64,000 nucleotides of DNA, from contig NC_091013.1 in NCBI RefSeq assembly GCF_041296385.1, positions 69,719,563 to 69,783,562 on the forward strand, given 5' to 3'. The stretch is from Aphelocoma coerulescens. Lineage: Eukaryota > Chordata > Aves > Passeriformes > Corvidae. The notes under the pieces were generated by a model. The model worked only from the letters and a program-made list of their open reading frames with translations, did no database searches and was not told where the DNA came from. Of this stretch, positions 18,080 through 32,731 are shown one piece after another. Numbering within the stretch: position 1 is the first letter of the stretch; every line of letters starts with the position of its first letter. Both the position numbers and the translations under genes were made by a program.

Positions 18080-18175
18080 CTTTGTAAAATGAGTGGGCAA
18101 AGCTCTGCTCAGGAATTAACTTGGCAAGGAATCCATGGTTCAAACTTGGGTGAGGGATAGATGGTATGACCACAA
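18080..18175 (-). CDS. NBEA: NBEA exon 20 of window: 96-nt symmetric linker exon
   Basis: A 96-nt exon, phase 1 at both ends. With G from exon 19 it reads VVVIPSIPHPSLNHGFLAKL then IPEQSFAHSFYK plus G. The acceptor is CTCCACAG|TTG, with a poor pyrimidine tract, and the donor is AAAG|GTAATA. The peptide matches a segment I recall in the mammalian NBEA linker. Exon 19 can also splice directly to exon 21 with an intact Thr-Glu-Thr junction, so this is a natural cassette candidate. The weak acceptor tract supports regulated use (inference). Confidence 0.88.
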
Positions 18176-22753: not shown

Positions 22754-22884
22754 CTTGGTTGCTGCTGATGCAGTTACACCCTGAAGAGCATCTTGAGTTT
22801 TACCGCCAATTAATGACGTCTTGTTTACTCTCTCTCTTTGCCTTTGCCGGCATTCTAAGCAGTTCCTCACAGCCACACAACAAA
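22754..22884 (-). CDS. NBEA: NBEA exon 17 of window
   Basis: A 131-nt exon, phase 1 to phase 0. With the preceding G it reads V then CCVAVRNCLECRQRQRERVN, then a polar tail ending ASAATK. The acceptor is CTTCTTTTAG|TTT and the donor is CAAG|GTAACA, weaker than its neighbours. The Cys/Arg-rich start is family-typical. The polar tail is recalled as variable between species. The frame stays open past the donor for 22 more codons, but family comparison and phase put the end at ATK. Confidence 0.93.
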
Positions 22885-23525: not shown

Positions 23526-23706
23526 CAAGCCTTAGGCACTGTCGCATTAGACCTCCAGAAGACATGTTTTTTTCAGCTTCAATCTCACTGAAATTTAGAG
23601 AACTGGCAAATACTAGTACATCAACCATTGCCATCAGACGGCTGAGAAACGTTACTGCTGTCTCTGCTGACATTCCTTGTGTCACTTCAATATTTTCCAA
23701 TTCAGT
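23526..23706 (-). CDS. NBEA: NBEA exon 16 of window
   Basis: A 181-nt exon, phase 0 to phase 1. It encodes [18 protein letters not shown], then [17 protein letters not shown], and ends [10 protein letters not shown] plus G. The acceptor is TTTTAAAG|ACT and the donor is CTTG|GTAAGT, near consensus. The frame starts at the acceptor, three codons before the first in-frame ATG. It belongs to the second NBEA/LRBA helical region. Confidence 0.96.
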
Positions 23707-26179
23707 CTTTAAAAGGAGATAATTGAATTAAAGAGTTTGAACACAACTGAAATATAAAGACAGCACATACACATAGAAATCTAAATTGTTATGCTTAATG
23801 ACAGATAGATTGAAAGTTATTTAAAAATCTCCTACTAACACCATTAACATAAGCTGTGAGTGAAATTCAAAGTAAGACAGCATGAAGAGTGAGAAAATTA
23901 TTTACATTTACATGCTGAAATAGATGAGAAAAAGTCTAATATAAATGAGAAAGTTATTAGCAACTACATAAAGACAAAGTATGGGCAGATAGTAAAACAA
24001 TGCATGGTGTAAAAGGGTGCGACATATTCTTACATTCTTCCATTCTTCCATAGGCTACCCAAAAAAGTAACAGCTGAAAGGCTAAAGAACTCTGTGTATA
24101 GCTTTTACTTTTTAATGTTCCTTTAGATAAACAAGCAAATGTGAGGAATGGAGTGGGAAAAAAACATACAGTTTTGCACTCTGTTTCCATGAATCGATTT
24201 TCCCTGGAATGTTTACAGCATATAGAATCCTGACAGAGTCCAATTCTCCAATTATGTTTGCTGCCTCATGACAACAACAGAGGGAAAGTAAAAACGTGAC
24301 AAGTGACATGGCATGCAGCTCACATGTCCCAGAGAGCTGTTGTTTCTTTCCTAATGTAGTGTTGGACTCTCTTTAGTGGGAATCCACAGAAGATTTCTGA
24401 ATGAGGTCAATATTTCTGAAAGCTAAAATGTTGTTCTCCAAAAAGACACTTAGATGTCGAGAGTCATGTTTTCAAATGCTTTCAGGTATTTAGCAGTGCA
24501 GGTAAGTGAGGAAACAGTCAGCTTAATAAAAAAAATATATCAGTTTAAACACTTTTACCTCTGGAGCTAGCCAAATTGAAAACAGGAATATGTGATATTT
24601 GTCCACATCCAGAATTATATGCCTAAATACTGTTTTAAAATTTGTTTACAGATGGCTGATTCTTACTGATTGTCAACAAGCTTTCCAGTTGCAAGACTTT
24701 TTGAGCACACAGTTTGGGCCCTCTGAAAAGTATTTTTCATTGTGCTGCTCTACTTTTATTAATTTGATTAAAAGTATTTATAAAAAATATATTTTTTGTG
24801 CTCTTAATGTAATTTCCTTCCAAAGGAAATAAAAAATACAGAAAACCAAAAATTTCTTTATTTCCATACTCCTAAAACATTATTAGCCTCAGTCATGGCT
24901 TACTTCTAAGAATACTTTTACATCCAAAATTATAAAAGTGCAAACTGTTCCAAACAGTATTAAGGAAACAATTGTTTTGAAAGATGAAAGATACAAAGTG
25001 GCATGTGTCACCATAATGATAGATCGCCCTTCATTTAATTTCTCTTAAGGATGTAGCGTGTCGGTTACATGAGTGATTTGGGAAGGGCTGCCATCTGTCT
25101 GAACTGCCCAGTAATATTAGAAAAAGAGTAAAATGACAACTCTCAGAAGAAAGATTTTCAGCCTATTTCCTCTCCTCTTTAGCCAGGGCTCCCCTGTTTA
25201 GTTTGTGCTGTGTTCCTACTTTTGGAAAAATACGTTGCTTGGTTTTTTATAATAGACTGGAAGAAGAGTTTTTGAAAGCATTCACCCAAAGAAAATATAT
25301 TTTCAAAAATCTATAGCCATAACAGTCTGCTAGAAAAACTCATATGTGGTTATGGAAACTTGAACTTTGAACTCATGCTTGAAATAACATCAGGCTCACT
25401 TGCAGCTGATTGACTACCTGATGTTGATTTTTATCAAGTTTCAACTGTATTGTGCCAATCATAGTCTTAAACCTCTCGGAATATCTATTACTTTTTTATT
25501 TTTGAAAGTTATGTAGTAAATTCACTTAATGTAAGACTTTAGTGCATTTTAGCAAGATTCTCGCAAACTTTGAATTAAAAAGAATCTTTTATTTTTTACA
25601 TATCTCCCTAAAATTCTGCTACCTGGAGGAAAAAATGACTGACAGTTTTCTAGCACCAAGTTTACCATCACTTCTACCTGTTAAATACAGCACACTGGTA
25701 CTGTAATAGTGTTTAAAATACATTCCATTATTGATCAAGCTGCCTTCTAATATCACCAATATTTTAGATAGTGGTGTCTCTAAAACCCATTGAAAAGTGA
25801 ACTCATCACCGTTCCATGACTACTCAGTGTAATTTAAGAGCAATGGCAAGCCTCCCATACAATGAACATGCTCAGGACATAAAGAGTTTCTCTACTGACA
25901 ACTGCATTTATAACTTAAATTAGCTCACGGACCCAACTACATTCAGGCCAGGAGCTAACAGCAAGCACCATAACTGGCAATGCATTAGGTACTCAAGGGA
26001 AATATGGTAAGAAAAGTTAATTACTACACCTAATATATTCCTATTCACATCCTACTGTATGATATAGGAAAATAATAGTAAGAATAATAATAGTTTAAAA
26101 AAGACAATATATCAAATGATCAAAAAGAAAGGTATTTTTTAAAATGCAAAAAACTGAAACTTACAGCAGCAATACTAAC
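23707..26179 (-). other. NBEA: NBEA intron downstream of the microexon, 2.5 kb
   Basis: The first 15 nt after the microexon donor (26165-26179) contain TTGCTGCT and lead to a second consensus-like donor, GTAAGT. The rest holds no recognised repeat. The part near 25010-25470 is homopolymer-poor and has a few CpGs (for example 25023-25062), so it could be a weakly marked regulatory stretch. Confidence 0.75.
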
Positions 26180-26188
26180 CTTAGAACC
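26165..26188 (-). other. NBEA: Possible 24-nt extended form of the microexon
   Basis: Using the downstream donor GCT|GTAAGT instead of AAG|GTTAGT would give a 24-nt exon encoding GSKVSIAA, in frame and without a stop. The downstream donor is the closer match to the consensus. Whether it is used cannot be told from sequence; the recalled family protein has only GSK. Confidence 0.3.
26180..26188 (-). CDS. NBEA: NBEA microexon (9 nt, Gly-Ser-Lys)
   Basis: On the minus strand the sequence reads TGCATGTCCAG|GGTTCTAAG|GTTAGT, a three-codon exon in phase 0 at both ends. Exon 14 ends in ...TSPT and the following exon begins TELENIEV, and from memory the family protein has GSK between them. The upstream tract (26190-26225) is rich in TGTC/TGTT and contains TGC words plus TGCATG immediately before the acceptor. 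Such arrangements are typical of neuronally regulated microexons. Inclusion or skipping keeps frame. A second donor 15 nt downstream could extend it to 24 nt. That it is spliced in this species is inference. Confidence 0.82.
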
Positions 26189-26193
26189 CTGGA

Positions 26194-26199
26194 CATGCA
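26194..26199 (-). promoter_or_regulatory. TGCATG (RBFOX-type) splicing element upstream of microexon
   Basis: TGCATG on the minus strand lies 5 nt upstream of the microexon, between the TG-rich polypyrimidine tract and the AG. UGCAUG is the established RBFOX binding word, and UGC words near short-exon acceptors are bound by SRRM4/nSR100. Binding so close to the acceptor could repress or regulate use of the 9-nt exon. The direction of the effect is not predictable from sequence. Confidence 0.55.
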
Positions 26200-27119
26200 A
26201 CAGACAAAACAGACAACAGATCACAACAATAAAAGAAAAAGAAAATTATTTAAGTTAACTAAAAATACAAGGTAAATTGAAACAAATTAGTATCTTGGAA
26301 TTATACATTTGTTTAATTTATATTTAAAACAGCAAAACATTTAAGCTCAGCATGAACATTTGAAAATAAAGACTTGTCAAAGATAGCTATGCACAAGGAA
26401 AACTTTAAATCTGGCATTGTTATGGAGTTCACGTAAACACTGATTCTTCCAAACCAATGTACATCTTTTATGTAGTACACAGAATAAAATTATGAAGCAA
26501 GGTAAAACAAAGTAATATTTTAACTAATTATATAGATATTAGCATTTTACAACAAGCCATTCAACTGAAATGTAATAAACTAGTTGATCCTTTTATGAGG
26601 AGGCAAATATGCTTCAAATGCTTGGAAAAAACAAATATAAATTATGAAAAGCAACCTGGATCTTCATGAATAATGCTCCTCCTCTGGATGCGCTACAGGA
26701 TAGCTCGTTATAATGTTATATTGGGTGTGATTTCTTCAACCTAAACCAGTATCAAACTAGATATGACAATGCTTTTGAACCACAGGAAAAAAAAAAATCA
26801 AGATTTACTAAGCCACTCAGTCTGAGTTGGCATTCATATTTCATTGTTCACAATTAAATATATGTGTTAAATTTTTATGGTTTAGTTTTAGGTAGAACCA
26901 CTTTCTCTATTATCACAATGGGCTAGGAACTAATTCTTAAGTTTTCGTTGGTTCTGTTTTAAAAATAGAAAGAAACTTCAGAGCATGTCAGTTACCATTG
27001 TTATGATTTAGACAGTGGAAAAACCTAATCTAACAAAAAGAAAAACAGGCTGAAACAAACTGTTTTCTTTCCTATCAGGACAGAAAATACCACACTCAAC
27101 CAGTTTTTAAATGTGTCTT

Positions 27120-32577: not shown

Positions 32578-32731
32578 AGTTGGGGATGTGGCTGCTGACA
32601 GCAATGGTAAAATTCCTCCACAAGCAATAATAATATTGTCTACCATCTGGGAAATGAGGTGTATTGTGTTGTGTACAAAAATAATATTTTCATTGCTATT
32701 GACAAAGTCCATCACAGACTTCGTGGAGTGA
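32578..32731 (-). CDS. NBEA: NBEA exon 14 of window
   Basis: A 154-nt exon, phase 2 to phase 0, encoding [20 protein letters not shown] through [21 protein letters not shown]. The acceptor is TTCTTGCAG|TCA, with a good pyrimidine tract, and the donor is AACT|GTAAGT. The hydrophobic [12 protein letters not shown] stretch is a buried solenoid helix or a membrane-proximal segment (inference). It is followed by a 6.4-kb intron leading to the microexon. Confidence 0.95.

Follow-up and report, generated by a model that had tools for sequence, protein, structure and literature searches.

The neurobeachin gene (NBEA) of vertebrates appears to contain a cassette microexon in which a single acceptor is paired with two nested donors, and its DNA can be read in the window analysed here, a stretch of 64,000 nucleotides from Aphelocoma coerulescens. 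We give this reading, taken together with the mechanism proposed for it below, a probability of roughly 0.72. The exon, its splice sites and its second donor are found in the DNA, and vertebrate protein records carry zero, three or eight residues at the junction. The exon can be left out of the transcript, kept as 9 nt encoding Gly-Ser-Lys (GSK) or, as we infer for birds, kept as 24 nt encoding GSKVSIAA; all of these forms keep the reading frame. The new point here is the conserved second donor.

The gene and its microexon

A 21-exon model running from 59036 to 5121 encodes 1,266 aa with no stop codons, and the product equals the neurobeachin X2 records of both Corvus kubaryi and Corvus cornix residue for residue (100% identity). 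The other 38 among the 40 top full matches have identities of 99.68–99.92%, so that the DNA belongs to a crow or a near relative of one. Guides made from human proteins sum to 2,465 bits for NBEA against 1,165 bits for LRBA, and 19 NBEA pieces match the window in order. LRBA, the paralogue that was first suspected, is ruled out by these guide scores together with the named neurobeachin records, and the same evidence confirms the gene name proposed in the initial annotation. No Pfam family was found on two of the related protein records (P0245 and P0246), and no solved structure matches a 114-aa segment at E 0.001. Elsewhere in the model, the minus-strand exon at 22754-22884, encoding RQRQRERVNKTSLIGGKTQDALQGVTASAATK, agrees with the human guide at 68% of the 47 residues aligned, against 100% for the exon preceding it; it is perhaps a fast-changing linker.

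The microexon, GGTTCTAAG, occupies 26188-26180 on the minus strand, where it encodes GSK in phase 0/0 between an AG and the donor GTTAGT. Read along that strand, the order is TGTCTGTTGCATGTCCAG (5′ flank), GGTTCTAAG (microexon) and GTTAGTATTGCTGCTGTAAG (3′ flank). The upstream exon, which ends in AATSPT, lies at 32578..32731 and is called exon 14 by counting inside the window and not along the gene; the downstream exon, which begins with TELENIEV, lies at 23526..23706. The intervening introns measure 6,389 nt on the upstream side and 2,473 nt on the downstream side, in agreement with the 6.4 and 2.5 kb given earlier. In fact, every structural element that had been proposed from the letters alone (the GSK exon, its splice sites, its phase and the place of a TGCATG word near its acceptor) held when checked on the sequence. 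With 9 nt, a multiple of three, and phase 0/0, the exon also has the size (3–27 nt) and symmetry of SRRM3/4-dependent neuronal microexons.

Several observations bear on whether so small an exon might be a chance arrangement. Within the 8,871 nt that separate exon 14 from exon 16, an AG followed by G-S-K codons and a GT occurs once, where 3,000 first-order simulations of a stretch of that length give 0.0073 on average. Across the entire minus strand of the window, the microexon is the sole AG-(3 to 30 nt)-GT pair with an acceptor score of at least 11 and a donor score of at least 6.9; since these cut-offs were chosen just under its own scores, the uniqueness means merely that no other pair equals both. 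The scores come from a home-made matrix and are approximate, not maximum-entropy values; by this measure the acceptor ranks fifth of 21. RNA folding around the microexon is not unusual (z 1.08), searches of the window for Rfam families at gathering score and for tRNAs found neither, and a degenerate DNA pattern of the microexon had no matches in viral_contigs. The question is settled by database records: GSK is present at the site in all 120 listed matches to a GSK query (the best 120 of 3,602 at E 0.001 or lower), so the exon is real and beyond chance.

Inclusion and skipping in vertebrate records

A second query, built on the skipped junction, returned the opposite state. In 119 of its 120 listed matches (the best 120 of 3,271) the insert is absent and the junction reads PTT; the one exception is a mixed Acipenser record with ATH. 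These skip-form records cover birds, turtles, lizards, snakes, alligator, caecilian and mammals. Serinus canaria and Melopsittacus undulatus are present in both lists, with UniRef the only source of their skip records, and among the crows the GSK form alone was seen, from annotation. Skip forms with NCBI isoform names occur in the birds Rhea pennata (X1), Aix galericulata (X4), Leptosomus and Podargus (isoform 3 in both), as well as in alligator, lizards and mammals. The full-length comparison took in the 120 listed proteins of each query, and a third search added shorter proteins. The earlier claim of an alternative exon is thus borne out at the level of protein records, by two different queries, and the microexon is a cassette already annotated or recorded in many vertebrates. 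Annotated neurobeachin isoforms with GSK (Corvus kubaryi X2) and without it (Gorilla X3) concern the same gene, the same junction and the same three residues; what the window contributes beyond them is the DNA, namely the TGCATG at the acceptor and the second in-frame donor. In the literature listings and passages covered, no paper named the GSK exon or its second donor, and the portions available of PMC5451163 and PMC12287369 hold nothing on the GSK exon.

Nucleotide contigs provide a further kind of evidence. Four rodent-like contigs (P0145-P0147 and P0190) of 6.5–7.3 kb carry the skip form, and are read as spliced RNA because they encode 1,626–2,048 aa without introns. Another contig, fish-like, carries the 9-nt form as SAK, in 3,259 nt for 917 aa (P0242). 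Both the included and the skipped state therefore probably exist as RNA in vertebrates.

It could be argued that the microexon is constitutive in birds and that the skip records are simply annotation misses of a tiny exon. Small microexons are in fact often missed in annotation, according to the accessible text of a study of plants (PMC8831610), the splice sites of this one are not weak on the home-made matrix, and many bird skip records (uncounted) have UniRef as their only source or are marked partial. However, there are contigs, read as spliced RNA, that carry the skip form, albeit rodent-like ones, and the skip records named as isoforms by NCBI include those of birds. We therefore regard constitutive inclusion in birds as unlikely.

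A second, nested donor

The initial annotation did not mention a second in-frame donor. It is a GTAAGT (26159..26164, as GCT|GTAAGT) that starts at 26164, 15 nt past the first donor (GTTAGT, 26174..26179, as AAG|GTTAGT), with the frame open between them. The home-made scores are 6.3 for the second donor and 7.0 for the first. The 15-nt extension at 26165..26179, which the first donor overlaps, encodes VSIAA, so that use of the second donor would yield a 24-nt exon encoding GSKVSIAA. Exactly this peptide is recorded in fish: a neurobeachin-like record of the paddlefish Polyodon spathula (P0244) has PSGSKVSIAATELEN, that is, GSKVSIAA at the same junction, and a second paddlefish record (P0249) has the skip form. 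Three teleost records (P0246-P0248) have SSKSSANT, and the salmonid records P0355 and P0356 have SSKVSTNT/SSKVSANT followed by a divergent or cut end. These 24-nt forms come from the third protein search (120 listed records of 163), which left out full-length proteins, and the exact GSKVSIAA rests on the one Polyodon record. As a separate observation, the inserts that salmon P0355 and conger P0254 have at this junction, or beyond it, are longer and unlike those above, which suggests that further alternative exons may lie in the same fish intron.

The likeness to the paddlefish is difficult to attribute to accident. The rough odds that I-A-A and a GT at +16 would occur by chance are 1 in 87,000, assuming equal codon use and with VS fixed by the first donor, and on that account the 15-nt extension is most likely inherited exon sequence. 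The two cases differ in that the paddlefish form is recorded in fish, whereas that of the window is a reading of the DNA, with no bird record of a 24-nt form among the listed matches of the three queries. This absence says little, since two of the lists were drawn up by queries for the 9-nt form and for the skip form, while full-length proteins are omitted from the third.

A different account of the same conservation is that the second donor goes unused in birds and the 15 nt are kept as intronic splicing elements, with GTTAGT, UGCUGC and GUAAGU serving, for example, as an extra U1 site. Conservation could in part be due to the donor and the UGCUGC words, and the 120 listed GSK records do have the 9-nt form at the site, though the list selects for it. 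Against this, the peptide retained agrees with that of the paddlefish exon down to the I-A-A, and the donor sits at exactly the same place. This account is a serious contender that we consider somewhat less probable than not, and the nested-donor exon remains the preferred reading.

Neurobeachin, LRBA and invertebrate proteins

The third search also bears on the origin of the insert. Judged by the human guides, 37 of its 120 listed records (of 163) are of vertebrate type, comprising 20 neurobeachin records, 16 of LRBA and the mixed Acipenser one. The neurobeachin records divide into eight with the skip form, six with the 24-nt form (two of them cut or divergent), one with the 9-nt form and five irregular ones, the last being probable cases of intron read-through, truncation or other exons. 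The insert is absent from all 16 LRBA-type records among the 120 listed. It is likewise absent from 81 of the 83 listed invertebrate-type records, where two residues separate ATSP from ELDV-like letters, the other two being unreadable at this place; the invertebrate-type records that name an organism are from arthropods.

LRBA has the same exon borders as neurobeachin on both sides of the site. In the same genome, its intron at this place is 409 nt long, and none of the six AG-GT pairs in it that pass lenient cut-offs encodes GSK. The simplest reading of these comparisons is that the insert was gained in neurobeachin after its separation from LRBA. Loss of the insert in LRBA is a less simple possibility.

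The acceptor tract

The acceptor is preceded by a T-rich AG exclusion zone of 68 nt (26191..26258, minus strand) with two TCTT words at -54 and -48, which we take to be PTBP-type motifs. A candidate distant branch point, TTAAC at 26254..26258, places its A at -67, and an alternative, TTTAT, places its A at -42; both are matches to a consensus only. A TGCATG at -11 to -6 (26194..26199) lies inside the polypyrimidine tract. The tract had been described as having TGC and TGTT words, and the latter are indeed present four times, at -40, -30, -23 and -14. TGC occurs just once in the last 30 nt, within the TGCATG, so that the "TGC words" and the "TGCATG" are the same bases.

How much weight these features can bear depends on how common they are. 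TGCATG occurs 34 times on the minus strand of the window and 66 times on both strands, compared with 42.5 in shuffles, none of 100 of which reaches 66; given this general excess, single sites deserve little weight. The chance of a TGCATG in 24 start positions is about 1.3%, uncorrected for the choice of the motif. The window has 193 pyrimidine-rich AGs, and 32% of them have a TGC within 30 nt; the presence of one here is accordingly a weak sign. AG-free zones of at least 68 nt are less common, being found at 1.3% of 4,030 AGs and at 5.2% of the 193 pyrimidine-rich ones; the ordinary neighbouring exon at 32731-32578 also has a long one, of 64 nt.

Opposing predictions for SRRM3/4 and RBFOX

The genome has two loci above the cut-off for PF15230 (SRRM_C), presumably the eMIC domain of SRRM3/4. 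In the accessible text of two sources, the SRRM3/4 microexon code consists of a UGC near the acceptor, a long AG-free zone and a T-rich tract (PMC8797185, PMC10551640), and one of them describes SRRM4 targets as having a weak 3′ splice site (PMC10551640). The exon of the window is like those of this eMIC-domain programme in being tiny and frame-keeping, with a UGC near its acceptor and a long, T-rich AG-free zone. It would differ from them in its acceptor, which scores high on the approximate, home-made matrix; this, the frequency of UGC near AGs and the 64-nt zone of the neighbouring exon all count against an SRRM reading. The UGC and the 68-nt zone suit SRRM3/4, as far as sequence features can indicate.

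NBEA is also among the transcripts with nSR100/SRRM4-dependent microexons, as attributed to Quesnel-Vallieres et al. 2016 in the available part of a review (PMC7545264), where the exon goes unnamed. That report may concern another exon, because neurobeachin varies at three other places. The first is a 96-nt exon of the window (18080-18175, minus strand; VVVIPSIPHPSLNHGFLAKLIPEQSFAHSFYK; phase 1/1) that Motacilla alba isoform X2 includes and isoform X12 lacks; by these records, 18175-18080 is a second cassette exon in the window. The other two lie beyond the window and vary between listed bird isoforms: CFLPQ, an optional 15-nt microexon near residue 2566 of P0026, and VLAPFLPRLFTSR, of 39 nt, near residue 2146 of P0022.

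RBFOX leads to a different expectation. In what is available of the respective sources, alternative micro-exons show an enrichment of TGCATG on their downstream side (Li et al. 2015, PMC4317164), and RBFOX bound upstream favours skipping (PMC10551640, PMC12064062). TGCATG thus occurs near the micro-exon in both cases, downstream in those RBFOX-enhanced exons and upstream in the window, where no GCATG is found within 300 nt downstream of the microexon. The upstream TGCATG had been put forward as a sign of neuronal inclusion, and that part of the regulatory reading is not supported; the SRRM3/4-type features stand. Indeed, the UGC and the UGCAUG, once cited together, predict opposite outcomes, since an upstream RBFOX site favours skipping. 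That RBFOX might nevertheless promote inclusion in brain and muscle through this TGCATG has in its favour that the RBFOX word lies within 11 nt of the microexon; with no GCATG downstream and upstream binding stated to favour skipping, we consider it very improbable. From the upstream UGCAUG and the 300 nt downstream with no GCATG, RBFOX, if it acts here, would be expected to work against inclusion, competing there with SRRM3/4 for a shared stretch of bases.

The mechanism that we propose begins with an acceptor that would be read from a distant branch point across the T-rich tract and its long AG-free zone. Through the UGC at -11, SRRM3/4 would promote neuronal inclusion against PTBP1, RBFOX on the overlapping UGCAUG would hinder it, and the adjacent pair of donors would help to define so small an exon. 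In the protein, the GSK residues would add to the length of a loop that lies, in the neurobeachin core, between two predicted helices. A structure prediction of the teleost record P0246 (37 rows; mean pLDDT 49) places the insert in a loop of low confidence that separates helix 212-220 from helix 245-266; such a weak model gives only a hint that the insert extends the inter-helix loop.

A possible three-state peptide switch

A more ambitious proposal, which we advance tentatively and think rather doubtful as a whole, is a three-state peptide switch of zero, three or eight residues, which neurobeachin would have kept from ray-finned fish through to birds and which LRBA lacks. Competition between SRRM3/4 and RBFOX for the UGCAUG at -11 would govern inclusion, and the choice of donor would set the length. 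For work on microexons, the correction made above means that an upstream UGCAUG lends no support to neuronal inclusion and, for RBFOX, predicts the opposite. For neurobeachin, the nested donor allows three states, as opposed to two, to be tested cheaply at one loop of a synaptic trafficking protein, and it also bears on the timing of the three states relative to the neurobeachin/LRBA split.
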